From contig CAIVAR010000139.1 in NCBI GenBank assembly GCA_903904005.1, positions 1-64,000 of the forward strand: a DNA stretch of 64,000 nucleotides, read 5' to 3'. This stretch comes from an uncultured Anaeromyxobacter sp. (lineage in GTDB: Bacteria; Myxococcota; Myxococcia; Myxococcales; Anaeromyxobacteraceae). The position numbers were made by a program, and so were the translations under genes. This document shows positions 1 to 19,824 of the stretch, in pieces. The stretch's first letter is position 1. Every line of letters starts with the position of its first letter. Below the pieces are notes generated by a model that was not told the origin of the DNA, did not search any database, and saw only the letters and a list, made by a program, of their open reading frames with translations.

Positions 1-84
1 GACAAGATCGAGCCTCTCATGGCCAAGTTCGGAGAGATGCTCCGGGAACAACGCACATTCCGTGAAGTCTTCGGGCTCATCTGA
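1..84 (+). CDS. C-terminal end of an unrecognised protein (partial)
   Basis: Frame 1 is open from the window edge to a TGA at 82-84, giving 27 residues that end in REVFGLI. It looks helical and mixed-charge. It is too short to identify. The downstream tail-fibre reading frame has lost its start just after this stop, so this end may have been brought next to it by insertion or recombination. Confidence 0.35.
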   Translation, partial: DKIEPLMAKFGEMLREQRTFREVFGLI

Positions 85-185
85 AATGAGGGGATGGCTC
101 AGACAACACCCTGATCGGCGATTATTCGGGAACGAGCAGCACGGATAATACGAAGGGCCTCACGACGGGCTCCAACAATATCCTC

Positions 186-2621
186 GTGGGTCGGTACGCT
201 GGTGGGGCAGTCACCAGCGGGAGCAACAACGTGGCCGTGGGTAACGGAACCACGGTGCTGGCAGACGCGAGCAATCAGATCGCCATCGGTCACGGCGCCA
301 CTACCACTGCGGCCAACATGGCGGTGATCGGGAATGGCTCGATCACAAAGACCTTCATCGCGGGCATCAAGGATGTCACGCTCGCCGGGACCACGAAGAG
401 CGTGGTGATCGACACCACCACCGGTCAGCTCGGGGCGGTGACGGCTGGCGGTGGCGGCACGGTGACGAGCGTGGCAACTGGAACCGGACTGACCGGCGGC
501 CCCATCACGAGCACCGGCACCATCGACCTCGCCAACACGGCTGTGACTGCCGGATCGTACACTCGGGCCACGATCACCGTGGACGCACAGGGGCGCCTCA
601 CCGCAGCGAGCAACGGAGCGGCAATCGACCTTACCTCCGGTGTCACGGGCACTTTGCCTGTGACCAACGGCGGAACGGGGGTCGCTACGGCGCCCTCCGC
701 TGCCGGGGGCGTGATCTACGCCGCCAGCACAAGTGCCTTCGGGGCCACGGGTGCGGGAGCTTCTGGGCAGTCGCTGCTCAGCGGTGCTGCGGGCGCACCG
801 ACCTGGGGCACTCCCGCCAGCGCGACCACGGCCACCAACCTGGCGGGCGGCGTCGCAGGCGCAGTCCACTATCAGTCGGGCGCGGGCGCCAGCGGCTTCA
901 GCGCCGCGGGCACTTCCGGCCAGGTACTGGTCAGCGGCGGAACGGGCGCACCCACCTGGACCACCAACATCGCCGGCAACGCGGCCAATGTGACCGGCAC
1001 TGTGGCCGTGGCAAATGGCGGCACGGGTAACACGACGGGCACGGCGGCAATCGCGAACGCCCTCGCCTCGGCGACCACGACCGTGAGCGTCTCGGCGGCG
1101 ACAGCACCGACAACCGGTCAGGTCCTCACGGCGACGGGCAGCACGGCCGCTACATGGCAAACCCCGGCGGGCGGAAGCATCGACTCCGACGCATTACGCT
1201 CTACAAAGGGCGGGACCGGTGCACTGGCATCTTCCCTGAGTGGCAGTTCGACGTTGAACACTGCATTCGGCTACAACGCGTTGAACGCACTGACAGGCAT
1301 TAGCAGTTTCGCAAACACGGCATTTGGCGCTGAGGCCCTGAAGTCAAGCACGGCTGGCGCCAAGAATACGGCCGTTGGGGAGTCGGCCGGAGGCGCCGTC
1401 ACTACTGGAACGTACAATACGTTGGTCGGATATTCGGCTGGTGAGTTCATCAACACCGGCAGTTCCAATACGCTCATTGGTGCGAACGCGGCGCCGCCCT
1501 CTTGGGTCGCCACCCTTACCAGTTCCATAGCAATCGGAGCGGGCGCGACACCCAATGCCAACTACCAGATGGTTCTCGGAGGGTCCGGGATTTCGAGTGC
1601 CTTTGACGCTGCGCTCACCCAGGTCATCCCCGGAAAAAACAACTCCGCGAGCCTGGGCTCGACGACGAACGCTTGGACCGGGCTCTACCTCGCCGGCAGC
1701 ACCTCGGGGTACATCGCGCTGAAGGCCCCGGCCGCGCCAACCAGTTACACGCTCACCCTTCCGGGCACGGCGGGCACGAGCGGCTACGTTCTCAGCACCG
1801 ACGGGAACGGAGCGACGTCGTGGATCGCCGCGGGCGGTGGAGGAATTGTTTCCGATGCCGCTGGAAATACCAAGGGCGGGACATCGGCACTAGGGAGCCT
1901 TACTACGGGAGCGAACAATACTGCGTTCGGCTCCGGCGCACTGGTCACGCTGACGGACAGCTCCAACAATACCGCCATTGGCATTTCAGCCCTGGGAGCG
2001 GCGACAGGAAACGCCAACACAAGCGTGGGAGTCCGAGCCGGATATGGAAACACTACCGGAGGCGGCAACACCTTCTTTGGGATGGGAGCCGGGGCAGCGA
2101 ATACCGACGGCTATAACAACACGTTTATTGGAAGAGATTCTGACACGACGGGCGGCAGCAGCTTCTTCAATGCCACGGCAATTGGATACGGCGCACAGGT
2201 CACCGACAATAACATGGTGCGCATCGGTAACGCGACCGTGTCGGTCATCGGAGGTCAAGTCGCCTGGACGGCTACTTCCGATCGCCGCCTCAAGCAGAAC
2301 GTATTGAGTTCCGGTCTGGGACTCGACTTCATCCTGAAGCTTCGCCCGGTGACTTACAGTTTCATCACCCAGCCCACGGTCACCCACGAAGGCCTCATCG
2401 CCCAGGAAGTGGAAGCGGCCGCCCAGTCCATGGGTACCACCTTCCACGGAGTGAAAGTCCCCGCCACTGCCGACGGCTACTACAGTCTCGCCTACTCCGA
2501 CTTCGTCATGCCGCTCATCAACGCGGTGAAGGAACTCAAGGCCGAGAACGACGCCCTCAAGGCGGAGAACGAGGCTCTCAAGGCCGACGTCGCCGCCATC
2601 AAGCGGGCTCTCGGGCTGTAG
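186..2621 (+). CDS. 5'-truncated tail-fibre/trimeric-adhesin-like protein with C-terminal peptidase S74 chaperone domain
   Basis: Surface or phage-fibre protein made of many NTAFG / NTLIG / NNVAVG-type repeats, as in trimeric beta-roll stalks. It ends in an intramolecular chaperone of endosialidase (peptidase S74) domain that starts at TSDRRLK, with the expected Ser-Asp at about residues 698-699 from the GTG at 186. A coiled coil of AEN(D/E)ALK repeats closes the protein. In this family the chaperone helps the fibre trimerise and then cleaves itself off at the Ser. The frame is open back to a stop at 87-89 and already encodes repeat sequence (DNTLIGDYSG) with no ATG, so the GTG at 186 is probably not the native start and the 5' part is lost. 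It lies on the mobile-element side of the att scar near 4.03 kb. Confidence 0.8.
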   Translation: MGRYAGGAVTSGSNNVAVGNGTTVLADASNQIAIGHGATTTAANMAVIGNGSITKTFIAGIKDVTLAGTTKSVVIDTTTGQLGAVTAGGGGTVTSVATGTGLTGGPITSTGTIDLANTAVTAGSYTRATITVDAQGRLTAASNGAAIDLTSGVTGTLPVTNGGTGVATAPSAAGGVIYAASTSAFGATGAGASGQSLLSGAAGAPTWGTPASATTATNLAGGVAGAVHYQSGAGASGFSAAGTSGQVLVSGGTGAPTWTTNIAGNAANVTGTVAVANGGTGNTTGTAAIANALASATTTVSVSAATAPTTGQVLTATGSTAATWQTPAGGSIDSDALRSTKGGTGALASSLSGSSTLNTAFGYNALNALTGISSFANTAFGAEALKSSTAGAKNTAVGESAGGAVTTGTYNTLVGYSAGEFINTGSSNTLIGANAAPPSWVATLTSSIAIGAGATPNANYQMVLGGSGISSAFDAALTQVIPGKNNSASLGSTTNAWTGLYLAGSTSGYIALKAPAAPTSYTLTLPGTAGTSGYVLSTDGNGATSWIAAGGGGIVSDAAGNTKGGTSALGSLTTGANNTAFGSGALVTLTDSSNNTAIGISALGAATGNANTSVGVRAGYGNTTGGGNTFFGMGAGAANTDGYNNTFIGRDSDTTGGSSFFNATAIGYGAQVTDNNMVRIGNATVSVIGGQVAWTATSDRRLKQNVLSSGLGLDFILKLRPVTYSFITQPTVTHEGLIAQEVEAAAQSMGTTFHGVKVPATADGYYSLAYSDFVMPLINAVKELKAENDALKAENEALKADVAAIKRALGL

Positions 2622-2632
2622 ATCGGGCCACC

Positions 2633-3094
2633 GTGCCCTCCCTCCCCCTCCTCTGCTGCCCCCGCTGCCTGCGCCCTTCCTCCGGGAAGGGTGGCAGGCT
2701 CACCGGGCGTACGTCTGCATCCCGTGACGCCACGACGGTCCCGCCCTGCGCCGACTGGCCGGAATGCAAGTCGGTGTCGCAGACGGCGGAAGGGCCGGAC
2801 AAGTTCCGAGGGAACCCGCCGCTCTGCAAGCTCCACGAGTGGGACGCCGGGATCAAAGCCGCGATCCGCATCCTCTGCGACGAGGGCATCTCGTACCTGA
2901 ACGGCTGCGACGGCCACGGTGTCTCGGCCGCATGGATCGGCATGGACGACGTGGAGGAGGCGAAACGCGCGGTGAAACTGTTGCGCCGCTACGCGCCGAA
3001 GATCGTGGGACTGAAGCTGAACGCCGACGGCTCGCAGGACCTGGCCGTGGTGCTGCACAAGGGCGTGAAGCACGAGGGGATGGACGGGAAGTAG
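2633..3094 (+). CDS. Hypothetical protein with Cys-rich N-terminal half
   Basis: Starts at a GTG 11 bases after the S74 gene and encodes 153 residues. The N-terminal half has several Cys (LLCCPRC, PPCADWPECK, PLCKLHEWD) that could bind a metal. The C-terminal half has a regular alpha/beta look (DDVEEAKRAVKLLRRYAPKIVGLKL). I do not recognise the family. The close spacing suggests co-transcription with the fibre gene, which would fit a small accessory phage or adhesin protein. The start is uncertain because no good ribosome-binding site is visible. Confidence 0.45.
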   Translation: MPSLPLLCCPRCLRPSSGKGGRLTGRTSASRDATTVPPCADWPECKSVSQTAEGPDKFRGNPPLCKLHEWDAGIKAAIRILCDEGISYLNGCDGHGVSAAWIGMDDVEEAKRAVKLLRRYAPKIVGLKLNADGSQDLAVVLHKGVKHEGMDGK

Positions 3095-3111
3095 CCAGTA
3101 GACCCTGAACC

Positions 3112-3405
3112 GTGGGTCACCACGCCGCCCAGCGTGATGCCCTGACCCCAACAGGTCAGGTCTCTCTTACATCTCTCTCGTCTCAATCGCGTCTGTCCCC
3201 CCGGACGCGCCCCTGTGCGAATCTGGCCAAGGCCCGCGCTGTGCTCGCCGCGAAGCGCAAGGCTGGCTGGAAGCCCAAGCCCCGCAAGCAGGTCAAGGAT
3301 GCTCCGACGGCCAGGGTTGCCGCTCTCCGCAAGGCGCTCGAGCAGGAAGCGGTTTCGCTCGAGGAGCGGGCCAAGAAGCTCCGGGCGGCGGCCGAGTTGC
3401 TGTAG
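3112..3405 (+). CDS. Small basic hypothetical protein
   Basis: 97 residues from a GTG at 3112, 17 bases after the preceding gene. The first ~35 residues have a non-coding-like composition; the remainder (AKARAVLAAKRKAGW to the end, KLRAAAELL) is a convincing basic helical or coiled-coil segment. The real start may be internal. It could be a small DNA-binding or structural protein of the mobile element, but there is no family match. Confidence 0.3.
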   Translation: MGHHAAQRDALTPTGQVSLTSLSSQSRLSPRTRPCANLAKARAVLAAKRKAGWKPKPRKQVKDAPTARVAALRKALEQEAVSLEERAKKLRAAAELL

Positions 3406-4001
3406 CTCGATCGCGCGGCAGCACCTTGGGCGATGGCGAGCGCGCGCATGGCGTCGACCCCCCGCGGACACCTTGGGTGGTGGCCCTCCCGGCGAGGGCC
3501 TTGCCAGACGCGAGGAACAGTTCCTCCGTCAAGCCAGGCAACATCATCTGCGCCCCCGCCGCCTGGCCATTTCGTGGCCACTTCGCGTCCGAACACGCTC
3601 TTTCGGGGCGATCAGCCGTGTCCACGCGCTCGGCGCTTCCCGAGTCGTTGAGCGCAGTTGAGCCTCCCATCCGGCCAGTGTCACTTATAGTAAAACGCCC
3701 CCGCAGTCCACCATCTCGAGGTTGCCGGGAACAAGATCGGGCCACGTCTGCGCGCCATCGACTCGGTCACCCACGCGTGGGTCGCGGCGGCGCCGACCGA
3801 AGCGATGCGACCCGCTCCGCCTTCTCCATGAGCTCACGCGCACCTGCGAAGTCGCCCAGGGTCGCGGCCTCGATGGCGAGCCGGACGCACGCTTCGAGGA
3901 ACGAGGGGAGGGGACTGGGAAGTCCGGACGGGTCCGACGCGTCCGGCCCGTCGACTGGCCATGTCACGCTCGGTGCGGGGTCGCCTCGAGACGCATAACG
4001 A
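3406..4001. other. Intergenic end of the mobile element
   Basis: About 600 bases with no convincing plus-strand gene. The right half carries the minus-strand integrase-tail remnant annotated separately. A comparatively AT-rich patch lies near 3681-3695. I see no insertion sequence ends. Confidence 0.4.
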
Positions 4002-4024
4002 CCTGTGAATACAGGCGAATTCGC
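4002..4024. repeat. Two adjacent short palindromes next to the att core
   Basis: CCTGT-GAAT-ACAGG at 4002-4015 is a perfect 5-bp inverted repeat. It shares one base with the perfect 10-bp palindrome GCGAATTCGC at 4015-4024. Both sit directly before the tRNA-like fragment and could be recombinase arm or core sites. Confidence 0.5.
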
Positions 4025-4027
4025 GCC

Positions 4028-4047
4028 TTCAAGTCCCGTAGGGGTCA
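4028..4047 (+). other. tRNA 3'-end fragment (candidate attachment-site core)
   Basis: TTCAAGT fits a T-loop (T54 T55 C56 A57 A58), CCCGT the 3' strand of the T-stem, AGGGGTC the 3' strand of the acceptor stem, and the following A the discriminator base. The matching 5' strands (ACGGG, GACCCCT) are absent upstream, so this is not a complete tRNA. An intrinsic terminator follows 8 bases later, as expected behind a real tRNA gene. This is the usual scar left by integration into a tRNA 3' end. Confidence 0.55.
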
Positions 4048-4054
4048 CACAGTG

Positions 4055-4087
4055 CCCCGTCTCCGTCGTCCCGGAGGCGGGGTTTTT
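4055..4087 (+). terminator. Rho-independent terminator
   Basis: An 11-bp stem (CCCCGTCTCCG at 4055-4065 with CGGAGGCGGGG at 4072-4082, one T-G wobble), a 6-base loop and five T's at 4083-4087. It would end transcription of the tRNA whose 3' end lies just upstream. Confidence 0.85.
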
Positions 4088-4291
4088 CATTGCTATGCCG
4101 TTCACCAAACGTGAAGTAGAGGGCCCCGTCTCCAGAATGTCTCCAAACTCGCGGGCGCGAATGGCACCCTCGAGGGGCGCTGGAGGGGGGTGGCTGGGAT
4201 GCCGGTCATGGCGCGGGTGACCCGGGTGCGGGTGCCCCACCCGTGGCAGCCGAAATGACGAGCAAGTCGGCTGGCCTGTGCGAGGTGCGGG

Positions 4292-4306
4292 CGGCATGGC
4301 CGTTGC
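4292..4306 (+). promoter_or_regulatory. Candidate sigma-54 promoter element
   Basis: CGGCAT-GGCCG-TTGC has the GG-N10-GC spacing of a -24/-12 promoter and continues as TTGCAA. It lies 31 bases before the ATG of the lipase-like gene. The match is fair, but a GC-rich background makes chance hits common. Confidence 0.4.
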
Positions 4307-4336
4307 AAACTCCAGGGGAGCCACCCGGGAGGTTCC

Positions 4337-5764
4337 ATGCGCCGCCACCGCTCCGTCGCCCTCATCGCCATCCTGACGATTCTCGTTCTCGGTACGACGG
4401 CCTGCGCCGGCTCGTCCGGGGCTCCCGGCACCGTCATCGAGACCGAGACCGTGCCCGCGAACATCGACGTGACCTCGCTGGAGAGCGCGGTGGACGACGC
4501 CCTCGCGCGCGTCACGGCCGCCCAGGAACAGGCGACGACGCCCAACGAGAGGGCCCAGCTTGCTATCGACAAGGGGCTGCTCGACTACCTCAAGGACGTC
4601 GTCCTGGAGACACTGAAGACCACGTTCGCCGGGCGCCTCCACTGGGTCGGCCACTCCCGGATCAAGTACTGGTCCACCGACGCCAGCGGAAAGGCCGTCC
4701 GGCTGAGCGGCGTGATGTTCGTGCCCTACATCATCAAGTGGGACCCGCACGCCTTCCCCCTGCTCTCGCTCCAGCACGGGACGCAGATCTACCGCCCGTA
4801 CGCACCGTCGCTGTTCACCTACGACATGAAGAACCTCTTCAAGGACGGGAGGGTCCTGGCCCAGATCGAGGTGGTGCTGGGGATCTTCATGGCGGTGCCG
4901 GGCTACGTGGTCGTCATGCCCGACTACCCCAGCCTGGGCGTCTCGACCGACCCCCATCCGTACACCCACCTCTCCATCGCCAACTCGGTGGAGGACATGC
5001 TCAAGGCGTCCAGGGCGGTCCTCGCCAGCGAGTGGCGCGACTACGCAACGTGGGACGGGAGGGTCTTCATGAGCGGCTACTCCGAGGGAGGGTACGCGAC
5101 GCTCGTGACGGCGAGCCAGCTCCAGGCGAAGGGCTCGGACCTCACCCCCGTGGCCGTGGCGCCACTGGACGGACCGCACGACCTCTCCACCACCATGCGC
5201 ACGCTCATGGTGGCGGACCGGCAGCACCCGTCGGCGTACTTCCTTCCCTACATGCTGTACGGCGAGAAGTTCATCTACGGGGATGCCGTCTACGGCTTCT
5301 CGAAGACCATGCGCTCCCCGTATGACGCCACGCTCCCGCCGCTCCTCGACGGTACTGCGAAGGGCGAGCAGGTGGTGTCCGCCATGGCCTTCCGCCCGGG
5401 GGCGACCTACCCCGTCCCGGCCGACATCCTCACGGCCGACTTCCTCGCCCTGGTGCAGCGGCCCTTCACGGGCGACCCCGTCACCGATGGACCGGTGGTG
5501 ACGATGCTCGCGGCCAACGACGCCTACCGGGGCTGGACGCCCTCGATGGCGCTCAAGTTGTTCCACTGCGCCACGGACGACCTCGTTCCACGGGGCAACT
5601 CGGACAAGGCGTACGCCGAGTTCAAGGGGCGAAACGCGCCCAGGCTGGAGACCATCGGCGACGTCGAGCCGCTCCCGATCCCGGACGCGACGGTCCACGT
5701 TCAGGCGGCCCTTCCGGCCTACATGAACGGCTACATGTGGATCGACACGCACTACAAGAAGTGA
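4337..5764 (+). CDS. Secreted lipase-like alpha/beta-hydrolase lipoprotein
   Basis: 475 residues beginning with a lipoprotein signal (hydrophobic ALIAILTILVLG, then TTAC with the Cys as lipidation site), so probably anchored in the outer membrane or released. The nucleophile elbow GYSEGG is followed by YATLVTASQ. A candidate Asp sits in CATDDLVP and a late His in ATVHVQAA. The layout resembles secretory lipases with a lid region (family PF03583-like). It would hydrolyse esters or lipids; the substrate is unknown. A good ribosome-binding site (GGGAGG) precedes the ATG. The gene stands alone and convergent to the sensor kinase behind it. Confidence 0.75.
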   Translation: MRRHRSVALIAILTILVLGTTACAGSSGAPGTVIETETVPANIDVTSLESAVDDALARVTAAQEQATTPNERAQLAIDKGLLDYLKDVVLETLKTTFAGRLHWVGHSRIKYWSTDASGKAVRLSGVMFVPYIIKWDPHAFPLLSLQHGTQIYRPYAPSLFTYDMKNLFKDGRVLAQIEVVLGIFMAVPGYVVVMPDYPSLGVSTDPHPYTHLSIANSVEDMLKASRAVLASEWRDYATWDGRVFMSGYSEGGYATLVTASQLQAKGSDLTPVAVAPLDGPHDLSTTMRTLMVADRQHPSAYFLPYMLYGEKFIYGDAVYGFSKTMRSPYDATLPPLLDGTAKGEQVVSAMAFRPGATYPVPADILTADFLALVQRPFTGDPVTDGPVVTMLAANDAYRGWTPSMALKLFHCATDDLVPRGNSDKAYAEFKGRNAPRLETIGDVEPLPIPDATVHVQAALPAYMNGYMWIDTHYKK

Positions 5765-5775
5765 GATCCGCCGGC

Positions 5776-5791
5776 GACGGCCGCGGCCGTC
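5776..5791. repeat. Perfect 16-bp GC palindrome between convergent genes
   Basis: GACGGCCGCGGCCGTC reads the same on both strands and lies in the 89-base gap between the converging lipase and kinase genes. It can form a hairpin in either transcript but lacks a T-run, so a terminator role is only possible. Confidence 0.45.
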
Positions 5792-5853
5792 CTGCCACCC
5801 TCGATCGAGCTCGCCAGGCAACCGCCCAGGGAGGGTATCCGCTTCGGATCGAT

Positions 5854-8775
5854 CTAGACGGGCCTCCGGGCGGCGGGGGAGAAGCGTTTCAGCACCCGGT
5901 CGAGCGCGGCCCAGTCGACCGGCTTCGTGAGGTAATCGTCCAGCCCCGCCTTCATGTAGTGCTCCCGGAACTCGGGAAGCGCGTCGGCGGTGAGGGCGAC
6001 GATGGGGACGCGGGCGCGCTCCCCGTCGAGCTGTCGGATCTGACGGGTCGCGCCGGCCCCGTCGAGCTCGGGCATCTGCATGTCCATGAGGACGAGGTCG
6101 AAGCTGCCGTCGCGCACGGCCTGCACGGCCTGTACGCCGTCCTCGACCAGCACCACGTCGTGCCCGCCCCGGCGGAGTCGGGTGCTGATGAGGAGCCGGT
6201 TCACCGCGTTGTCCTCGGCCACCAGGATCCGCATCCCGGTGGCGGCGGGCTCCGGCGGAGCGGGGGCGGCCTCGATGGCCGCCGGCACCGGCTCCGCGGC
6301 GGCGCGCCGGAGCCGCAGGTTGATCCAGAAGGTGGAGCCGCTACCGGGCCGACTCTCCACGCCGATCTCCCCTCCCATGGCCTCCGCCAGGCGACGGCAG
6401 ATGGCGAGCCCGAGCCCGGTCCCCCCGAACCGGCGGGTGGTCGAGGTATCTGCCTGCTGGAAGGGGCGGAACAGCGTCGGCAGGACGTCCTCGGGGATGC
6501 CGAGCCCCGTGTCGCGAACCTCGAAGCGCAAGGGGACGCCGTCGCCGTCCCCGCCGGGCATGCGGGAGACGGCCAGGGTGATCGTTCCACGTTCGGTGAA
6601 CTTGACGGCGTTGCCCACCAGGTTGAAGAGCAGCTGCCGGAGCCGGGTCGGGTCGCCGGACACGCGGGGGATCTCCGCGGCGTTCCATGCGGTCCGGATC
6701 TCGTTGCCCTTCCGGGAGGCGGCATTCACGAAGACCTCGACCACCTCGCGCGCCACCGCGAGCGGATCGAAGTCGATCTCCTCGAGCTTCAGGTGCCCCG
6801 CCTCGATCTTGGAGAAGTCGAGGACGTCGTTCAGCACCCGGAGCAGCGACTTGGCCGAGGTGTCGAGTGCCGAGACGAAGCGCTTCTGCTCGCTCGACGT
6901 CGAGGAGTCGGCGAGCAGCTCGATCATGCCGATCATTCCCGCCATGGGGGTCCGCAACTCGTGGCTCATCATCGCCAGGAAGCTCGACTTGGCGAGTGCC
7001 GCCGACTCGGCTGCGTCTCGCGCGCTCCGAAGCTCCTGCTCGTAGCGCTTCCGCTCGGCGATGTCGTGCCAGGAGACGAGCATGGCGTCGTGCTCGGCGA
7101 ACCGGATGGGCGTGAGCGTCATCTCCACGGGAACGGGACGACCGTCGAGCGCCCGCGCCGTCCACTCGAGCCGGGCCACTCCCTCCCGGCGGGCGACCTC
7201 CTCGATCCCCCGCAGGACCTCCGGGGACCCGAAGGAGCTGGAGTCCGACACGGGAGCCGCCAGATCCGAGAGCTGCTTTCCCAGGACGTCGGCCGGGGTC
7301 GAGGCTCCGAGGAGATGGAGCGCGGCGTCGTTCAGGTCGACGAGCCCGGCAGCGTCGAAGAGCAGGTGGGGCTCGCCGGAGCGCTGGAAGAGCGTCCGGA
7401 AACGCTCCTCGGCCTCCATGGCCCCGGTGATGTCCCGAACGATCCCGGTGAAGTAGCTCTCGCCCTGTTCGATCACCTCGCTGACCGCCAGGTTCACGAC
7501 CATGGGCGTGCCGTCCCGGCGGCGGGTCTGCATCGTCCGCCCGTGGCCGATGATCGTGGCGTGGCCGGTGGCCAGGTAGCGGTCGAGGTATGCCTGGTGC
7601 CCGGCCAGTTCGGGCGGGAGCAGGTCGGTGATGGGACGCCCGACGGCGGAGGATGCCGGCACCCGGAAGATGGCCTCGGCTGCCTGGTTGTACTCCCGGA
7701 TCATGCCGCGCTGGTCGATGGTGACGATGCCGTCTGCCGCAGAATCGATGATGTTGCGGAGGCGCCGTTCCTGCGTGGCGAGGGTCTGGCTCGAGGCGTC
7801 GCGCTGGCGGAACGAGCGGGAGAGGAGGCGCGCGTTGACCCAGACCGCCGTCAGCGTGAGGAGGAGCACGACCAGGGGCACGGTGAGCTGCCGCTGCCAG
7901 AGGTCGGTCACCATGCTCTCCGGGATGCGGGCCTCGACCAGGATCGGGAAGTCGTCGGTGGCGTCGAAGTGGGCGATCCAGCGTCGGCCGTCGGGTTCCT
8001 GGTCGGTGAAGCCGCCGCTCTCCCGGTCGGGCAGGAAGCCGGAGAAGATGGGGTGCGCCGGTCGGGGCGGGAGCGTCCCCTCCCGATCGGTGGCCAGGAG
8101 CTCGCCGTCGTACCTCATGACGGAGATCGACTCCTGCGTCCCGCGGGTCATCCGCTGGAGGTCGTTCATCAGGCTGTCCGCGCCCACCACGGCCACGATC
8201 CAGGGTCCGCTGGGAGAGTCCCCGGCCAGGCGGGAGACGGTCAGGAAGCCGGTCCGGGCGAAGGCTCGCCCGCTGCCTGCGGAAGGGGTGCGCCCGAACG
8301 ACCTCCCCTCCGACGGGATACCGACGCGGAGCCGGGAATCCCGGGGGGCGGAGAGGAAGCTGTACCCGGTGAGGAGGAGCCCCACATGGGCAGGATCGGA
8401 GGACGCGAGCACCCTTCCGTTCGCGGCGACGATCGCGATCTCGCGCAACATGTTGCTCTCTCCGACCTCCGTGGACAGGATGGCATTCGCCCGGGTCTCA
8501 TCCCGCTCGTTCAGCGCGTTGACGACCGTATCGTCCACGGCCTCGAACTGGGTCCGGATCTCGGAGAGGCGACCCTCGACCACCCGGGAGAGGACCCGCG
8601 AGAGGTTCTCGACCCGCTTCTCGATCCCTCCGCGCACCGTGAACCAGAGCTGGGCGAGGTTGGCCGCCGTGGCCAGGACCAGGACGAGGGAGAAGACGAG
8701 GGACACCAGACGGACGGTCCGGTCCGGCGAGTGGTGCTGGCGGGAGGGCCCGAGGCCGGAATCCACGCCCGTCAT
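5854..8775 (-). CDS. Membrane hybrid sensor histidine kinase with three PAS-like regions and a C-terminal receiver
   Basis: 973 residues. A first membrane segment (VSLVFSLVLVLATAANLA, about 25-45) and a second (VPLVVLLLTLTAVWVN, about 290-310) bracket a periplasmic Cache-like sensor domain. PAS-type regions follow, then HisKA with MMSHELRTPM (His about 605) and an ATPase domain with NLVGNAVKF, DTGLGIPE and GTGLGLAI. The receiver domain has VLMDMQMPELDG (Asp about 898) and YLTKPVD. It autophosphorylates and passes phosphate to its own receiver; no output domain or dedicated regulator adjoins it. Its ATG overlaps the stop of the solute-binding protein gene by 4 bases, so the two are translated together and the binding protein may present the ligand. 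Confidence 0.92.
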   Translation of the reverse strand: MTGVDSGLGPSRQHHSPDRTVRLVSLVFSLVLVLATAANLAQLWFTVRGGIEKRVENLSRVLSRVVEGRLSEIRTQFEAVDDTVVNALNERDETRANAILSTEVGESNMLREIAIVAANGRVLASSDPAHVGLLLTGYSFLSAPRDSRLRVGIPSEGRSFGRTPSAGSGRAFARTGFLTVSRLAGDSPSGPWIVAVVGADSLMNDLQRMTRGTQESISVMRYDGELLATDREGTLPPRPAHPIFSGFLPDRESGGFTDQEPDGRRWIAHFDATDDFPILVEARIPESMVTDLWQRQLTVPLVVLLLTLTAVWVNARLLSRSFRQRDASSQTLATQERRLRNIIDSAADGIVTIDQRGMIREYNQAAEAIFRVPASSAVGRPITDLLPPELAGHQAYLDRYLATGHATIIGHGRTMQTRRRDGTPMVVNLAVSEVIEQGESYFTGIVRDITGAMEAEERFRTLFQRSGEPHLLFDAAGLVDLNDAALHLLGASTPADVLGKQLSDLAAPVSDSSSFGSPEVLRGIEEVARREGVARLEWTARALDGRPVPVEMTLTPIRFAEHDAMLVSWHDIAERKRYEQELRSARDAAESAALAKSSFLAMMSHELRTPMAGMIGMIELLADSSTSSEQKRFVSALDTSAKSLLRVLNDVLDFSKIEAGHLKLEEIDFDPLAVAREVVEVFVNAASRKGNEIRTAWNAAEIPRVSGDPTRLRQLLFNLVGNAVKFTERGTITLAVSRMPGGDGDGVPLRFEVRDTGLGIPEDVLPTLFRPFQQADTSTTRRFGGTGLGLAICRRLAEAMGGEIGVESRPGSGSTFWINLRLRRAAAEPVPAAIEAAPAPPEPAATGMRILVAEDNAVNRLLISTRLRRGGHDVVLVEDGVQAVQAVRDGSFDLVLMDMQMPELDGAGATRQIRQLDGERARVPIVALTADALPEFREHYMKAGLDDYLTKPVDWAALDRVLKRFSPAARRPV

Positions 8776-9572
8776 TCCAGGAGCACGATCGGCTCGAGCT
8801 TGTGGGCTCGGGCTGCCGCCAGGAGGCGCCCGTCGCGCTTCACGTCGGCCACGAACTGGTTCACCCGTGCGAGCCAGGGCTCGTCGCCGGGAGCCACGGC
8901 GTAGGCGTAGGAGAGCGGGAAGACCGGCTTCTCGGGTGGCATGACCCGGGCCCAGTCGAAGCTGTCCACGACGCGCCGGCTGTACGGATAGTCGGTCATG
9001 AAGACGTCGGCGCGCCCCGACTGGACCTCCTTCTCGCGGGTGGCGGGAGGTCGGATCAGGACCATGTCCGCCTGCTGGAGCCGCGAGCGCATCACCGGCT
9101 CCATGAAGGTCCCTGCCTGGACGGCGACCACCCGGCCGGGCCGGTCGATGTCGTCCCAGGACTTGATGCTGGGGTGGGTCCGTGTCGTGACCGCGTAGAT
9201 GTCGGAGCGGAGGTAGGGCTGGGAGAAGCGCACCTTGGCGGCCCGCTCCGGAAGCATGCCGACCCCGAACATGGCGACGTCACAGCGGTCGGCGAGCAGG
9301 TCGGCGATGAAGGTGGGGAAGCTCGAATCGACGTACGAGACCTTCACGCCCAGGTCCTTGGCGAACGCGGTGGAGAGCATCTCGTCGATGCCGGAGAGCT
9401 CTCCCGACTTCGGGTTCCGGAAGGTGATGGAGTAGTAGTCGGGCCAGATGCAGACGCGCAGGACGCCGGACGATCGGATGTGCTCCAGGTGGCCGCCCGC
9501 CGGGGGGGCCTGGGCGAGAGCGGTGCCGGCCCAGGTGACGAGAAAGAGGAGGAGCGTTCGCAGCAAGCCCAT
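8772..9572 (-). CDS. Periplasmic solute-binding protein (SBP family 3, amino-acid type)
   Basis: Chosen start is the ATG at 9572: it gives a signal peptide MGLLRTLLLFLVTWAGTALAQ and is preceded by an AAGGGA ribosome-binding site; the longer frame to 9665 adds an unlikely Arg/Gly leader. The mature protein has the SBP_bac_3 pattern (SSGVLRVCIWPDYYSITF, ELSGIDEML, DRCDVAMFGVGMLPERAAK). No ABC permease or ATPase is nearby. The gene runs straight into the hybrid kinase, so sensing a small polar ligand for that kinase is more likely than transport. The genomic setting at the edge of the EPS locus suggests nutritional input to matrix production. Confidence 0.85.
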   Translation of the reverse strand: MGLLRTLLLFLVTWAGTALAQAPPAGGHLEHIRSSGVLRVCIWPDYYSITFRNPKSGELSGIDEMLSTAFAKDLGVKVSYVDSSFPTFIADLLADRCDVAMFGVGMLPERAAKVRFSQPYLRSDIYAVTTRTHPSIKSWDDIDRPGRVVAVQAGTFMEPVMRSRLQQADMVLIRPPATREKEVQSGRADVFMTDYPYSRRVVDSFDWARVMPPEKPVFPLSYAYAVAPGDEPWLARVNQFVADVKRDGRLLAAARAHKLEPIVLLE

Positions 9573-9604
9573 GATCAGTCCCTTTCCTTTCCAGGAAGGG
9601 GGTT

Positions 9605-9619
9605 GCACGACCCGGGCCA
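9605..9619 (-). promoter_or_regulatory. Candidate sigma-54 promoter of the binding protein-kinase operon
   Basis: On the minus strand TGGCCC-GGGTC-GTGCA has exact GG-N10-GC spacing and ends 33 bases before the ATG at 9572, leaving room for the visible ribosome-binding site. A GTTCC-GAATC-GGGTC half-degenerate dyad lies just upstream at 9649-9663. Confidence 0.55.
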
Positions 9620-9680
9620 GATTACGGCCACCCGGGCCACCAAGTCTCGTTCCGAATCGGGTCATCGGGGGTTTCCCGGG

Positions 9681-11471
9681 TCAGCGCCCCAGCGATCGGG
9701 CGTGAAGCCGGTCGCCGAGCGCCTCCCGGGCGCCGAGGAGCCGCGCCGGGTCGGAGGCGAACTCGTCGGCGCGCCGGATGAACGAGGCCGCCTGCTCCCT
9801 GGCGAACGCCCCCTCGCCCTGGGCCTCGAGCAGGTGCAGCAACTCGTAGTCCTCCATGCCCTCCCGGATGAGCTCGAGCCGGATCGACGAGAGCGGGACG
9901 TGGTGCTTCCCCCCGATCGTGCGGGTGTTTCCCGGGTAGATCAGGGTCCCGTCGCCGTGCCCGCCGAAGGCGTATACCGAGCGGAGCGGGTCGCGGGAGG
10001 TCGACCCGGTGGGGCCGCACTCCCGGGTGAAGCAGTAGTCGACCGCGTAGTAGAGCTCCCCCTCGATCCGCTCCAGGAAGGCCATCCACTGGAAGACCCG
10101 GTTGCGCATGGGGGAGGCGTCGACCATGTAGCTCGGCCAGGTGGCCTGCGCGGGGCCCATCCGTCCGTTGGCGCAGCTCTCATGCTGGTCGCAGGACTGG
10201 TACCAGAAGAGCTGCTTCCGGGGCGACCTCGAGAGGAAGGCGTCGTACCGAGGGCGCTGGCTGGGCTTCCCGTGGGGTTGCATGCGGTCGAGCACCGGGA
10301 CCGCGACGTCCACCGAGTCGAGGAGGCCGTGCTTCTCGAGGTGGTCGAGGTCGGTGGTGAGGAGCGTCCGGAAGTCGGGCGCGGCGGCGTGGACCCGTTC
10401 CTCCTCGGCGCGCGCGTCGGCGAAGGTGCAGGTGCCATTCCCCGGTTCGTCGCACCGGTACCAGACGAGGCGGTCGAGCCAGCCACGGGATCGGAAGTGC
10501 TTCGCCCAGCGGGACAGGGAACCCGCATCGGTGCCTCCGGCGTAAGTGAACCGCGTGAGCCGGGCGCCGGGGAGCAGCGTCGAGGCCCGCCCCTCGAGCA
10601 GCGGCCCGTAGACGGTGTCGAAATGGCGCCAGTCGTCGTCGCGGGGGCCGGCGTAGGTCACGTTGGCGAAGGAGACGCGGCGGTCGAGACCGAAGGTGGC
10701 GTAGAGGACGTGGAACTGCTCCACGCCGGCGTCCCGGCTTCCGGTGGGGGTGGCCGCCCCGCAGGCCTCGTAGCTCCCGAACTCCTGCACGCAGGCCCCG
10801 TTCCAGCTCATGGCGAAGTGGGAGGCCAGCGAGGCCGTCGACGGAAGATCGACGTTCCATACCTTGAGCCGCACCGGGAGCTTCGCCATCCCCCGCCCAT
10901 CCACCCGGACGCTCACGCTCCCCAGGTACCACCCAGAGGGGATGCCGCGAGGCACGTGGACGTCGATCCAGGCCGAGAGGTTCTCCCCGGTGCGCACGTC
11001 GGCGGGGAAGGCGTTCCGGGTCTCCCCCCAGTGGCGGTCCCGCGCCGGGACGAGCGCGTCGGGCACCTCGCCGGGAAGGCCGTTCGCATCGCTCCGGAGA
11101 TCGGGCGAGATGCGCTGGTAGAGCTCCCGCGAGACGGTCACGTTCGTGGCGGCCGGGATCCGCGCTCCGCTCCGGACGTCGACCAGGTCCGTGGACTCGA
11201 CAGTCACCCCCCGCAGGGCGGTGGTGGCCCGCACGTGGACCTGGAAGCTCTCCACCTCGTTCCGGGCGGAGGAGAGGACCGCCCAGTGGACCGGGCCGGG
11301 GGGATCGGTCCGCCGGACCTTGGCCATGCTGCCGGTGATCCAGACGTTCGCCGGGTAGGAGGCCGGGTCGGTGTCGACGGCGGGCGCGAGCTCCAGGGCG
11401 AGCGGGTCGGCGGGAGCGGCCGGTGCCGCCCCGGCGAGGAGCAGCGCCGCGAGGACGATCGCGCCCGGCAT
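9681..11471 (-). CDS. Secreted DUF4091 / glycoside-hydrolase-123-like protein of the EPS locus
   Basis: 596 residues with a signal peptide (MPGAIVLAALLLAGAAPAAP). The middle resembles GH123-type enzymes. The C-terminus carries the DUF4091 signature (SSIRLELIREGMEDYELLHL). Many Trp, Tyr and acidic residues (WYRCDEPGNG) suggest a carbohydrate-binding cleft. It is the last gene of the leftward EPS operon; its ATG overlaps the stop of the sugar-transferase fusion by 4 bases. It probably trims or processes the exported polysaccharide or a glycan in the envelope. The substrate cannot be read from the sequence. Confidence 0.75.
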   Translation of the reverse strand: MPGAIVLAALLLAGAAPAAPADPLALELAPAVDTDPASYPANVWITGSMAKVRRTDPPGPVHWAVLSSARNEVESFQVHVRATTALRGVTVESTDLVDVRSGARIPAATNVTVSRELYQRISPDLRSDANGLPGEVPDALVPARDRHWGETRNAFPADVRTGENLSAWIDVHVPRGIPSGWYLGSVSVRVDGRGMAKLPVRLKVWNVDLPSTASLASHFAMSWNGACVQEFGSYEACGAATPTGSRDAGVEQFHVLYATFGLDRRVSFANVTYAGPRDDDWRHFDTVYGPLLEGRASTLLPGARLTRFTYAGGTDAGSLSRWAKHFRSRGWLDRLVWYRCDEPGNGTCTFADARAEEERVHAAAPDFRTLLTTDLDHLEKHGLLDSVDVAVPVLDRMQPHGKPSQRPRYDAFLSRSPRKQLFWYQSCDQHESCANGRMGPAQATWPSYMVDASPMRNRVFQWMAFLERIEGELYYAVDYCFTRECGPTGSTSRDPLRSVYAFGGHGDGTLIYPGNTRTIGGKHHVPLSSIRLELIREGMEDYELLHLLEAQGEGAFAREQAASFIRRADEFASDPARLLGAREALGDRLHARSLGR

Positions 11472-13270
11472 CAGTGGGCGCCCTTGCCCTTCACCATCAC
11501 CATCACCGTCCGCAGCGCCACGTTGACCTCCATTCCCAGGTAGCTCCGGAGATCGTACAGGTGGGCCACGTAGGCCAGGTCGTAGAGCACCTTGGTGCGC
11601 ACGCTGTCGATCGATGTATCGTACTCACAGTGAATCTGGGCCCAGCCGGTGACCCCGGGCTTGCAGCGCGCCACCCGGTCCGTGTAGCCGGGGATCATGT
11701 CGCCGAGTTGCTTCACGAAGGAGGGGCGCTCCGGACGGGGTCCGACGAGCGTCATGTCGCCGCGGAGGACGTTCCAGAGCTGGGGGAGCTCGTCCAGCCG
11801 GGCCTTGCGCAGGAGGCGCCCCACCGGGGTGATGCGGGGGTCGGCCACGGTGGCCCAGACCGGGCCGGAGCGGGCCTCCGCGTCCACCCACATGCTGCGG
11901 AACTTGAACATCTGGAAGGAGATCGGACGTCCCCGCGAATCGTGGCGGACCCGCTCCTGCCGGAAGATGGCCGGTCCGGGCGAGGTGACCCTCACGGCGA
12001 CGGCCGAGGCCAGCAGGAAGGGCCAGGTGACGAGGAGCAGCAGTGTCGATCCCACGATGTCGAGGGTTCGCTTGGCGCCGCGCACGCTCAGCGGAAGCGG
12101 GGGAGGAACGTCTCCTTCGGCGTCGCCGTCGACCGACTCCCAGCCCACGCTCTGGTCCCCGCGGAGCGCCTGCCAGGCACCGGCCGCGGTCGCCACCTGT
12201 CCGAGCAGCCCGTAGCCGAGGAGGCCGAGCGGGCCCCGGACCGGCCGCCCGTCGAGCTGCCGCCAGAGGGCGATGCCCGCGGCCACCAGCACGACGAGCC
12301 CGGTGGCGAGGATCGCCTGGAACGAGGGGTACCGGGTGGCGCCCACGATGGCCGTGGCGAGCGCGGCCAGCAGGATCCACGGCCCCAGGATGCGCAGGAG
12401 CTTGGTCGCCACCAGCGGGAAGGCGAGGCGGGGGCGCAGCGGGGAGAGGAGGTCGGTGTGGCGGGAGAAGAGCTGCCAGTTGCCGCGGGCGATCCGGGCG
12501 AGGCGCAGGTAGACCGCCTGCGGGCCGGAGGTGGCTCCTTCGGAGGAGGCCACGCCGTGGACGTAGGCCACCTGGCCGCCGTCGGCCCGGACCAGCGCCG
12601 GGAGCAGCAGGTCGTCGTTCACGGTCCCGTTCGGGAGGGGAGGGATGGCCGCGCGGCGCGCCAGGTAGCACGCACCGTGCGCACCCACGACGAGGCCGCG
12701 GTCGGACTCGGCCTTCTTGAGGGCGGTCATGAGGCGCCAGTAGGCCCCCTCGCCCCCCTCCTGGCCGCGGGTCGCGTAGCGGGGAACCGCGATGGCGATC
12801 TCGGGGTCGCGCAGGGTGTCGAGGAGCTCGGGGAGGACGTCGGGGGCGATCTCGGCCCCGGCGTCGGTGAAGAGGACGAACTCGCCCTGGGCCTGCCGGG
12901 CCAGGTCGGAGATCACGGCCGCCTTGCCTCGGCGGGCGCCCCGGTCGACGAGCCGGACCCGGGGATCCCGGGCGGCGGCTGCGAGGACGATGGAGGCGGT
13001 GGCGTCGGTGGAGCCGTCCGAGCCCACCAGGACCTCGCGGATGCGCGACCGCGGCTCGAGCGCCAGCGTGGCCTCGAGCTTGGCGGCGAGCGTGGCGGCC
13101 TCGTTGCGGGCCGGGATCACCACGCTCACGTCCCCTTCGACCGGGGGGCCGCGACGCACCGGCCGGCGCGGGAAGAGCAGCACCGCGAGCGGATAGCCGG
13201 CGTAGGGGAAGAGGGCGGCCGCGCAGAGCGCGGCGAAGAGGATCCAGAGGGACAGTTCGCTCATCGTCAT
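11471..13270 (-). CDS. Fusion of a GT2 glycosyltransferase with a WcaJ/PglC-type priming sugar transferase
   Basis: 599 residues. The N-terminal ~330 residues are a membrane GT2: an initial membrane helix, SVVIPARNEAATL, GSDGSTDAT, LFTDAGAEI, and C-terminal membrane helices. From about residue 398 follows a bacterial sugar transferase (KRTLDIVGSTLLLL, FKFRSM, RKARLDELPQLWNVL, GDMTLVGPRPE, KPGVTGWAQI). The second half would move a sugar-phosphate to undecaprenyl phosphate to start the repeat unit; the first would add the next sugar. The two activities normally come from separate genes. It overlaps both neighbours by 4 bases in the leftward EPS operon. Confidence 0.9.
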   Translation of the reverse strand: MTMSELSLWILFAALCAAALFPYAGYPLAVLLFPRRPVRRGPPVEGDVSVVIPARNEAATLAAKLEATLALEPRSRIREVLVGSDGSTDATASIVLAAAARDPRVRLVDRGARRGKAAVISDLARQAQGEFVLFTDAGAEIAPDVLPELLDTLRDPEIAIAVPRYATRGQEGGEGAYWRLMTALKKAESDRGLVVGAHGACYLARRAAIPPLPNGTVNDDLLLPALVRADGGQVAYVHGVASSEGATSGPQAVYLRLARIARGNWQLFSRHTDLLSPLRPRLAFPLVATKLLRILGPWILLAALATAIVGATRYPSFQAILATGLVVLVAAGIALWRQLDGRPVRGPLGLLGYGLLGQVATAAGAWQALRGDQSVGWESVDGDAEGDVPPPLPLSVRGAKRTLDIVGSTLLLLVTWPFLLASAVAVRVTSPGPAIFRQERVRHDSRGRPISFQMFKFRSMWVDAEARSGPVWATVADPRITPVGRLLRKARLDELPQLWNVLRGDMTLVGPRPERPSFVKQLGDMIPGYTDRVARCKPGVTGWAQIHCEYDTSIDSVRTKVLYDLAYVAHLYDLRSYLGMEVNVALRTVMVMVKGKGAH

Positions 13271-14388
13271 GTCTCCGATGCGTGTGCGGCCCGGGGGGCC
13301 GTCGGGATGGCGTTCACGGTGCGTTCGAGCTCCGCCGCGCGGGAGCTCCAGGAATCGCCCGCCACGCCGCGGCGCCGCTCGGCGCGACGGAAGGGCGAGT
13401 CATGGGCCGCCTCGTCGGCGAGCCAGGCGACCACGTCGCCGGCCGTCCGCCCCAGGCGGACGCCGCGGATCTCCCGGACCTCCGGCAGGGGCGTGCAGAA
13501 GGATGGGAGGCCTGCCGCCAGGTACTCGCGGATCTTGAGCGGGTTCACCGCTGCGGTGAGCTCGTTCATGGCGAAGGGGGCCCAGGCGGCGCGCCAGGTG
13601 CGCATGACGGACGGAAGGTCGGCGTACGGGACGGCGGGAAGGAGCCGGACGTTCGGCAGGGCCTGGAGCGCCGTGGTGTCCACGTCGGAACGCCCCACGA
13701 ACTCGAGCGTCCAGTCGGGCGCCGCCCGGGCGACGGCGGCGACGAGGTCGAGGTCGATCCAGGGCGCGAGCAGCCCGAAGAAGCCGAGCACCTTGCCGCC
13801 CGGAGGGTCGAGCGACACGCGCCCGAAGTGGCTGGCCTCGACCCCCTGGGGCAGGTAGAGCCCGGGAACACCGGCCGGCAGGAGCCTGCGGGCCGTCGCC
13901 GCCACGAGGTCGGCCTGCCGGAGCATGCGTCGCTCGGCGAGCCGCGCCAGCTCCGGGTCGACGCCGGGGAGCTCGGCGTAGTCGTCGAGGCGCAGGTAGA
14001 CGAGTGCCCGCCGGGGGATGGCGTCGAGGTAGAGGGCGGCCACGGGGTTCGAGGCCAGCACGACGGGAACCTCGCCCTGCAGGGCATCGTTCACCGCGCG
14101 GGTGATGGCGGAACGGTTCAGCGCTGCCACGGCCGGGGAGCGGTGCCAGGGGAGCACCCGGGGGCGTGGCCGGACGAGCCAGGAGGGATCGGCAGAGGCC
14201 GGAGTGGACGAACGGCCCCTGCGGAGCCTGCCCCACAGGCGACGGGCGTCGTCGGCGGTGAGGGTGGGGGACCGCATCCCGATGGAGTCGATCCAGACGA
14301 CCCGGGAGTGCTCCCCGAGCTGCCGGGCCAGGTGCTGCGTCGTGGAGGGGTGGCGGCCCCAGTCGTCGCCGAAGACGAGCCAGGTCAT
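13267..14388 (-). CDS. Glycosyltransferase (GT-B fold, family 1-like)
   Basis: 373 residues from the ATG at 14388 (MTWLVFGDDWGRHPSTTQH). Features of GT-B enzymes: a substrate domain with VVWIDSIGMRSP, a nucleotide-sugar domain beginning near KVLGFFGLLAPWIDLDLV, and a late LKIREYLAAGLPSFCTPLPE motif, where the E-x7-E region usually sits. No signal peptide, so cytosolic, perhaps membrane-associated. Its ATG overlaps the stop of the upstream glycosyltransferase and its stop overlaps the fusion gene, so it is the second gene of a four-gene EPS operon. Donor and acceptor sugars are unknown. Confidence 0.8.
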   Translation of the reverse strand: MTWLVFGDDWGRHPSTTQHLARQLGEHSRVVWIDSIGMRSPTLTADDARRLWGRLRRGRSSTPASADPSWLVRPRPRVLPWHRSPAVAALNRSAITRAVNDALQGEVPVVLASNPVAALYLDAIPRRALVYLRLDDYAELPGVDPELARLAERRMLRQADLVAATARRLLPAGVPGLYLPQGVEASHFGRVSLDPPGGKVLGFFGLLAPWIDLDLVAAVARAAPDWTLEFVGRSDVDTTALQALPNVRLLPAVPYADLPSVMRTWRAAWAPFAMNELTAAVNPLKIREYLAAGLPSFCTPLPEVREIRGVRLGRTAGDVVAWLADEAAHDSPFRRAERRRGVAGDSWSSRAAELERTVNAIPTAPRAAHASET

Positions 14389-15494
14389 GCCGCCCTCCGA
14401 CGGTGGAGCGCGGAGCGGTAGACGTGGACGTAGGCATCGGCCATCGCGCCCATCGAGTAGCTCGACCGGACCAGCTCCCGGCCGCTGGCGCCGGCAGTCC
14501 TGCGCCAGGCCGGATCGGTGGCCGCCGCGGCCATTGCGGTTGCGAGGGCGGGGACGTCGCCGGCGGGCACCGTCCGCCCGGCGCCGCCCGAAAGGACGCG
14601 CGGCATCTCTCCGACCGCCGTGGTTACCGCGGGAATCCCCGCGGCGAGCGCTTCCAGCAGCGAGAGGGGCAGCCCCTCGCGGCGGCTCGCCAGGGTGAAG
14701 AGGTCGAGCCCGGGCAGGAGGCCGGCCACGTCGGAACGGGAGCCGAGGAAGAGGACCCGATCCGCCAACCCCAGGTCGGAGGAGAGGGATTCCAGCGTGG
14801 CTCGCTCCGGCCCGTCTCCGACGAGCACCAGGCGGAGACGGGGGCCCGTCGGCAGCGCAGCGTGCACGGCCCGGACGAGCGTGGCGTGATCCTTCTCCGG
14901 GGCCAGCCTGGCCACGCAGCCCACCGCGACGTCGTCGGGCTCGAGCCCCAGTACCGCGCGTGCCCGGGCCCGGAGTTCCGGCGTGGCGATCGGCGGGACG
15001 GGAACGCCGTTCGGGATGACGGTGCAGCGTCGCCCCAGCGTCGCCTCCCGCCAGGAGGCGATCTCCTCGGACACCGCCACGACGGTGGCGAGGCCGTCCA
15101 TGCGGCGGCCGATCGCGCGGCGCCGGGGGGCGTCGTAGATCTCGTGGGAGTGCTCCGTCTGGACGTGGGGGACGCCGGCCAGCCGGGCGGCGGCGGCGCC
15201 ATAGATGAAGGGGCCAAGGTGATGGGTGTGGAGCACGTCCGCGCCGGAGGTGCGGATCCAGCGGGCGATGCGGAAGGGGAGCAGGGGGTCGAGCCCCGCG
15301 CGGCCGGGGAGGAGGGTTGCCCGCGCACCCCGCGCCTCGAGGGCCTGCCGGACCGGTCCGTCGCCCCGGTAGGCCGCGACCACCGTGTCGACGCCTCGAG
15401 CCGAGAAGGGGGGGACGAAGCCCTCCACCATCCGCTCGATGCCTCCGATGCCGAAGTACTGGATGAGCTGTGCGACGCGAATCGGTCGTGCCAT
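14385..15494 (-). CDS. Glycosyltransferase family 4
   Basis: 369 residues from the ATG at 15494 (MARPIRVAQLIQYFGIGGIE), with the glycine-rich acceptor loop GIGGIERMVEG, the sequence VLHTHHLGPFIYGAAAARL, and IPNGVPVPP. The donor side has ARLAPEKDHATLVRAV and the E-x7-E motif in SRREGLPLSLLEALAAGIP. Such enzymes are retaining transferases acting on lipid-linked sugars at the inner face of the membrane. It is the first gene of the leftward EPS operon. A sigma-54-type element sits 15 bases before its start. Confidence 0.88.
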   Translation of the reverse strand: MARPIRVAQLIQYFGIGGIERMVEGFVPPFSARGVDTVVAAYRGDGPVRQALEARGARATLLPGRAGLDPLLPFRIARWIRTSGADVLHTHHLGPFIYGAAAARLAGVPHVQTEHSHEIYDAPRRRAIGRRMDGLATVVAVSEEIASWREATLGRRCTVIPNGVPVPPIATPELRARARAVLGLEPDDVAVGCVARLAPEKDHATLVRAVHAALPTGPRLRLVLVGDGPERATLESLSSDLGLADRVLFLGSRSDVAGLLPGLDLFTLASRREGLPLSLLEALAAGIPAVTTAVGEMPRVLSGGAGRTVPAGDVPALATAMAAAATDPAWRRTAGASGRELVRSSYSMGAMADAYVHVYRSALHRRRAA

Positions 15495-15508
15495 GCCTCC
15501 CTGCCTTG

Positions 15509-15523
15509 GCAAGCGGCGTGCCG
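15509..15523 (-). promoter_or_regulatory. Candidate sigma-54 promoter of the leftward EPS operon
   Basis: Minus-strand CGGCAC-GCCGC-TTGC differs from the TGGCAC-N5-TTGC consensus at only one outer base. It ends 15 bases before the ATG at 15494, implying a very short leader. Confidence 0.6.
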
Positions 15524-15661
15524 GCCCCATCGCGCCCCGGTGGGGGCGGAGAACCGTTCCATTCCCGGGCGACTGTTCCGAAGCGGGAGCCGTAGCCCGG
15601 GTGGCGCCCTCCTGCGCCCCGGGAGGGACGGGCCAGGTGTTCCAACCGTGAACGGTCGGGC

Positions 15662-15676: not shown

Positions 15677-15693
15677 ACAGGGACCCGGTAGCC

Positions 15694-19821: not shown

Positions 19822-19824
19822 GCC

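Follow-up and report, generated by a model that had tools for sequence, protein, structure and literature searches.

A Prophage Attachment Core within an Integrase Gene of an Uncultured Anaeromyxobacter and the Probable Exchange of the Integrase C-Terminus on Integration

Introduction

The integrase IntP of the Myxococcus phage Mx8, whose C-terminal exchange was described decades ago, has a prophage form, which is named IntR or IntX. According to excerpts of a review (PMC6070905), the attP site of Mx8 lies within int, integration creates a new 3′ end of the gene and the enzyme is thereby modified and not inactivated; the same excerpts ascribe a similar integration principle to the integrase of the Myxococcus phage Mx9. 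An excerpt of the Islander paper (PMC4383910) likewise states that the Mx8 and SSV integrases extend across attP. In the archaeal (suicidal) SSV-type integrases, as they are described in PMC8371274, the att site is inside the integrase gene; integration splits this gene and thereby separates the N-terminal part from the catalytic domain. In the integration-dependent immunity of mycobacteriophage BPs, as excerpted from PMC4557955, attP is located in a coding sequence and a C-terminally different protein results in the prophage. Among the literature search results, no report of a C-terminal exchange in Anaeromyxobacter was found.

In this study, we analysed a stretch of 64,000 nucleotides (hereafter, the window) that forms the start of contig CAIVAR010000139.1 (C139) in the assembly of an uncultured Anaeromyxobacter sp. 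(GCA_903904005.1). We consider it highly probable that the window opens with the attR end of a prophage and that the attachment core of this prophage is inside the 3′ portion of the gene for its own tyrosine integrase, from which an exchange of the C-terminus would follow.

Results

The 20-mer at positions 4028-4047 of the window occurs in exactly two copies among the 186 contigs of the assembly when up to two mismatches are allowed, the second copy being at C44:10842-10861. The exact shared block is 65 bp long (window 4028-4092, C44 10842-10906) and spans the 3′ end of a tRNA-Glu(CTC) gene and its terminator. Based on the 20-mer match, the ARAGORN tRNA calls and the comparison of the shared blocks, the window retains only a 3′ fragment of this tRNA (4028-4048, plus strand), while its 5′ half is absent. 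The fragment is followed, within the core, by a terminator hairpin and T run (4055-4087, plus strand) in the layout that is seen after tRNA-Glu in element-free relatives. A tRNA gene search of the window found none, and an Rfam search of positions 1-20000 returned nothing relevant apart from two chance matches to lncRNA models. The antisense reading of the 65-bp attR core in the integrase frame is MKNPASGTTETGHCVTPTGLE, and from the core this frame continues for 86 codons to a stop at 3767-3769. The first-pass annotation, which had recognised a tRNA 3′ end with its terminator but no 5′ half and an antisense frame running on into a tail on the element side, was therefore correct on both points, the intact copy of the tRNA being on C44. 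The minus strand also contains a 684-aa ORF (3767-5821) that comes from the chromosomal flank, crosses the core and extends into the tail; high GC probably accounts for it, and it illustrates how open frames can mislead here.

On C44, ARAGORN identified an intact tRNA-Gln(CTG) at 10633-10706 and an intact tRNA-Glu(CTC) at 10790-10862. The latter is adjoined by an ORF of 455 residues (12191-10824) that reads leftward into the tRNA and matches a PHROG integrase family (E 3.2e-18). Its C-terminus, MKNPASGTTETGHCVTPTGLEPMFST, is encoded antisense in the terminator and the tRNA, and the attL form of the integrase ends with VTPTGLEPMFST before the stop, its final five residues, PMFST, lying antisense within the host tRNA. 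The intact tRNA beside a leftward tyrosine recombinase gene that the annotation had predicted is thus present; it was expected upstream on the same contig but is found on C44, because the window begins at base 1 of C139. For the body of the C44 integrase, no Pfam or NCBIfam integrase model reached its cut-off, and a search of the PDB gave two matches only, both to structures of the N-terminal domain. Positions R223, K262, R337, H359 and Y369 are invariant in the integrase alignment and all of them stay in the attL body; we take these five to be the catalytic residues of the family motif, and the histidine that we assume to be usual in the HxxR motif is a tyrosine in the C44 integrase. A helix-turn-helix protein of 140 residues is encoded upstream of the integrase (HTH_17, E 2.7e-4, which is below the Pfam cut-off; PHROG excisionase, E 9.6e-4). 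Upstream of the integrase operon, C44 carries five GGTCC-N4-GGACC palindromes between 13122 and 13311 (at 13122, 13166, 13211, 13255 and 13298, spaced 43-45 bp apart), which in this exact form are absent from the window and which are possibly an operator or a partition site.

In another genome of the same genus (G001), no element occupies the tRNA-Glu site. A single locus in this genome matches the left flank on C44 at 9976-10903 (85.1%) and 9089-9682 (85.7%) and continues past tRNA-Glu with a sequence that matches window positions 4028-4171 at 87.8% identity. Because the empty site joins the outer flanks, positions 1-4027 of the window represent the far end of the prophage, in agreement with the geometry of the duplicated core, 4028-4092 represent attR and the sequence to the right of 4092 is chromosomal. 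On the chromosomal side (4093-5764, plus strand), the first gene (4337-5764, plus strand) encodes a secretory-lipase-like alpha/beta hydrolase (Pfam LIP, E 2.1e-7). A second candidate for an empty site, in G003, was rejected; a fragment of the lipase is present there, but the contig has neither a tRNA nor a match to the window. The remainder of the prophage is on other contigs and includes C44:10907-13338. That the element is a phage is shown by positions 186-2621 (plus strand), which encode a tail fibre or tail spike with an S74-type intramolecular chaperone at its end (Pfam Peptidase_S74, E 5e-10; PHROG tail spike, E 3.8e-42). Between this gene and attR there are two small plus-strand ORFs (2633-3094 and 3112-3405) with no Pfam or PHROG match. 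In G005 (L050 1912-5741) and G010 (L106 5311-9104), the genes that are upstream of tRNA-Gln/tRNA-Glu in G000 directly adjoin attR, and therefore the tRNA pair appears to be inverted with respect to the adjacent genes in that genus.

When the two ends are joined in circular order, the integrase gene encodes 536 residues, and PMFST is replaced by the 86 residues that are read from window positions 4027-3770. This joined gene was constructed rather than observed because the assembly contains no copy of attP or attB. The earlier expectation that an integrase at the far end would gain the tail in the excised circle is supported by this join together with the 65-bp core and the empty site in G001. 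A difference in the recombinase C-termini between the two states, which had also been suggested, is borne out by the sequence, with a 455-residue form ending PMFST on one side and a tailed form of 536 residues on the other; both proteins are presumably produced and presumably behave differently. Read in this way, integration at tRNA-Glu parts the catalytic body (attL, C44), which gains PMFST, from the 86-residue tail (attR, 3770-4027), and the integrase very probably has one ending in the free phage and another in the chromosome.

The detached tail and its stop codon occupy 3767-4027 on the minus strand, an assignment that is based on a tail model and on homologous tails at other attR ends. 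The open frame was discarded as evidence for coding; under an order-1 Markov model, the window tail would be open in 39% of cases, and the chromosomal flank has an open frame as well. Since the chance probability of an open stretch of 86 codons is 0.39, the case for the tail rests on homology. With a model built from the tails of eight other elements, the window being left out, the window tail ranked first among the 985 ORFs of the window (E 8.7e-16), while the second ORF had an E-value of 8.6e-5. Homologues of the window tail were detected at attR ends in G002:C238 (an 87-aa tail, E 3.7e-21) and G002:C62 (E 5.4e-13), as well as in the SeC-site (E 1.6e-7) and Val-site (E 4.4e-7) elements of G019. 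Moreover, a comparison of the joined protein with 60 relatives gave tail-only matches at other element ends, and an alignment search of 24 family genomes gave further tail matches. The alanine-rich, low-complexity composition inflates weak tail scores. The assignment of the G013 pair and of the two G002 tails to the compared integrases is putative.

A test that is independent of tail similarity was performed on 20 integrase cases by comparing the post-catalytic DNA with the fetched element. A second copy of the core was present in 11 of them, the repeats being 95-100% identical over 21-31 bp in ten elements and 87% identical over 63 bp in G005; in the other nine (G080, G070, G029, G015, G017, two in G024, G027 and the Arg-site element of G002), the fetched stretch had no usable second copy. 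Chance short matches were not counted, and neither was a second 20-bp core-like match in the Lys-site element of G031 (L064 14490-14471), which is also open. The integrase frame was open for 78-118 codons past the core in all 11 elements that had been located by core DNA alone, as opposed to 3/22 for the other two forward frames at a minimum of 78 codons (Fisher p 1.9e-6; the control frames overlap the same DNA and are not fully independent). The pN/pS ratio (Nei-Gojobori) was 0.50-0.82 in the integrase frame and was lower than in both shifted frames in eight of eight tail pairs; protein-guided codon alignments lower it somewhat. For the only two ungapped pairs, it was 0.50 vs. 1.10 and 2.11 in the shifted frames (G005/G010) and 0.82 vs. 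0.90 and 1.26, which is little difference (G081/G056). The core DNA of tRNA-Asp is read in two phases, as VARSTGLEP in G081 and as WRGVRDLNP in G056, and homology between the tails was detected in the integrase frame (E 3.2e-41); the tmRNA core is also read in two phases, in G112 and G093, again with homologous tails in the integrase frame (E 3.5e-7). Here, it is the homology of the tails that is informative and not the phase match itself, because the tails were located through the integrase frame. Judged by homology, the tail is real.

AlphaFold2, run on a single sequence, predicted a two-helix stretch in the tail at 3797-3901 (minus strand), which corresponds to residues 63-76 and 80-97 of a 106-aa fragment that was modelled alone. 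For the 10-residue blocks of residues 61-90, the mean pLDDT was 79, 88 and 85; for those of residues 1-60, a linker that is predicted, with low confidence, to be disordered, it was 47-50. Only the local helices are usable because the overall pLDDT was 61 and the pTM was 0.32. The apparently coding, helical tail that was proposed at the outset thus finds support in the attR tail homology and the tail model for its coding nature and in these predicted local helices for its structure. A degradation tag was rejected as the function of the tail, as the tail C-termini have no shared ending.

The alignment of five joined integrases matched 52 of the 145 genomes of the order. Among the examined loci, 41 distinct integrase ORFs extend to the end of the catalytic model. 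Of these, 28 overlap, in antisense orientation, a tRNA or tmRNA gene, three end before a nearby tRNA (G024:C56, G027:C112 and G012:C148), and for ten, including that of the free phage Mx8, neither an overlapping nor a neighbouring t(m)RNA was found. The target genes are of ten kinds (Glu, Asp, SeC, Lys, Val, Gly, Leu, Arg, Gln and tmRNA), and at least four tail types occur: an Anaeromyxobacter type, which includes the window tail, an Mx8-like type (G081 and G056), a tmRNA type (G112, G125 and G093) and a GRVDLA type (two elements of G031). No profile link between the tail types was detected, and no common origin is claimed because the hhalign probabilities were 0-1.9% for all six pairs. In two damaged integrases, G003:C51 and G009:C217, the catalytic domain is directly followed by a GRVDLA-like segment without an intervening core (two-sequence search, E 1.6e-6 and 5.8e-6). 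Homologues of the tail, which the first-pass annotation had asked for as fusions to integrases, therefore occur at attR of other elements that bear an integrase, and in the same frame. Tails that are directly fused to an integrase exist in Mx8 IntP and, with weak evidence, in these two damaged relatives. A genome-contig search yielded nine loci, the relatives being named uncultured Anaeromyxobacter, Anaeromyxobacter sp. PSR-1 and Myxococcales; the viral-contig scans revealed no extrachromosomal relative, and a phage-record search with the integrase matched five records, four of Mx8 and a weak one of a Lactococcus phage. Taken across these genomes, the tail swap looks widespread in the order, with several tail types.

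Several copies of a tRNA-Gly-type core were observed in series at G002:C238 (L035, 6838-12537) and G002:C225 (L043, 9400-13672), and an integrase that ends with GFEGSTR and lacks the helical tail is located at a repeated right end. The arrays have the appearance of tandem or nested integrations, between which tails could be exchanged. The coding linker to the integrase side of the core contains short paired repeats of the GGTTACAG, GGTGACAG and GTGACAG types in G005, G010, G031, G056 and G112, and in some elements such repeats are also present on the tail side; they resemble arm-type integrase sites inside a coding sequence. The GGTTACAG pairs were visible on the integrase side in G005 and G010, with similar repeats elsewhere. 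Arm-type sites remain a lead because GTTAC was not uniformly enriched across the 13 elements examined.

Discussion

There is good support for the view that the excised or infecting circle would encode a 536-residue integrase with a flexible linker and a helical stretch at its end, and that this is the form under selection. Because the tail is conserved, the tailed form that would be made from the circle is expected to be functional. By analogy with Mx8, it might be responsible for integration (attP x attB), while the prophage form, which lacks the tail but retains the catalytic residues, might have an altered activity and might work with the adjacent helix-turn-helix (excisionase-like) protein in excision. 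As excision would restore the tail, the switch would reset itself, and we infer from the same analogy that the tail swap may have an effect on directionality. We tentatively extend this proposal to a large clade of Myxococcota integrases, in which the tail would be a portable, selected module that reports the free or integrated state, with at least four tail types and ten kinds of tRNA/tmRNA targets, a tail frame that follows the changes of the core phase, and tandem integrations at one tRNA that may swap tails. That this amounts to a general, self-resetting covalent direction switch and not to an oddity of Mx8 is conceivable, but we would not yet count on it.

A regulatory role has to be weighed against the alternative that the tail is needed for integration, folding or stability and that its loss in the prophage is a by-product of the position of the core, regulating nothing. 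Cores located within the gene are found repeatedly, at ten kinds of target genes, and the prophage form of the Mx8 enzyme is, in the excerpts of PMC6070905, modified rather than inactive, both of which argue against a mere by-product. Purifying selection on the tail, however, requires only a working tailed form, on which our evidence bears, rather than on the prophage form, and the two damaged relatives have a tail-like segment after the catalytic domain with no core between. We regard the by-product as somewhat unlikely and prefer a tail swap that modifies the enzyme. A suicidal integrase of the SSV type, whose split product is inactive and whose element is stranded until another integrase arrives, is improbable, since the split in the window element falls after the catalytic region and the five residues that we take to be catalytic remain in the attL body. 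The SSV integrases do share the att site inside the gene and its splitting on integration, but there, as excerpted from PMC8371274, the N-terminal part is split from the catalytic domain. It is more improbable still that the antisense frame is open beyond the core by chance, in a non-coding phage arm with binding sites, with the integrase ending where it can. Such a frame would be in keeping with the chance openness of the 86 codons, with the chromosomal side that is also open antisense, to 5821, and with the arm-site-like short direct repeats that flank the cores in several elements, but it does not explain the tail homology in exactly this frame, the excess of open integrase frames over the controls, the lower pN/pS or the fact that homologous tails remain in the frame of the body although the core phase differs. 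Finally, a binning artefact that combined C44 and C139 from different strains, although the assembly is fragmented and both contigs stop inside the element, is scarcely credible in view of the identical core in exactly two copies, the empty site in G001 that carries both flanks and the same arrangement in one molecule in the single-contig genomes G005, G006, G019, G081 and G112.

An integrase whose C-terminus is exchanged on integration, which is the reading we favour, would indicate that Mx8 does not stand alone; an in-frame tail beyond the attachment core appears to be kept by related elements, with target genes of several kinds, both in Anaeromyxobacter-like genomes and in others of the order. 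The prophage-form integrases of this clade that are found in genomes would be shortened versions of the enzyme of the infecting form, and island ends at tRNA fragments can conceal orphan 3′ parts of genes. The conserved tails, with several types and two reading phases of one core, constitute a natural data set for studying the role of the tail in the direction of recombination, the choice of the att partner or stability.

Mx8 is the closest phage. Its IntP and the C44 integrase have a related tyrosine-recombinase body (34.3% identity over residues 1-383, tblastn E 1e-45), and the features of GenBank record D86464 place the recombination site inside the 3′ part of intP, as is the case for the core in the C44/window integrase. 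In both, a tRNA-like core lies inside the int frame, although that of Mx8 is of the tRNA-Asp type and that of the window element is of the tRNA-Glu type. The 65-bp core is in frame within the 3′ coding region, which gives the forms of 455 and 536 residues, and the C-terminus appears to be replaced on integration, attL ending with PMFST and the tail being left at attR. The tails differ, and no homology could be detected between that of Mx8 (113 aa) and the window tail (best phmmer E 0.17, window tail E 1.2; hhalign of type I vs. type II, 0.1%). Mx8-like tails were found in two Myxococcus-type elements, in G056 (E 1.3e-14) and G081 (E 4.2e-10), and the tail is directly fused in Mx8 IntP. While Mx8 was studied experimentally, the window element is known from its sequence alone. 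The Mx9 integrase was not among the five phage records that were matched by the C44 integrase. In the archaeal SSV-type integrases, the N-terminal part and the catalytic domain are split from each other, whereas here only a post-catalytic tail is exchanged and the catalytic region is entirely in the attL body. In BPs, it is the repressor gene that holds attP, whereas here the core is held by the integrase frame. Because of its body, the position of its core and its C-terminal exchange, the window element can be considered a new member of the Mx8 kind with a tail that is not detectably homologous to that of Mx8. The mechanism of C-terminal exchange was already known from Mx8; what looks new here is its apparent breadth in the order and the occurrence of several tail types.
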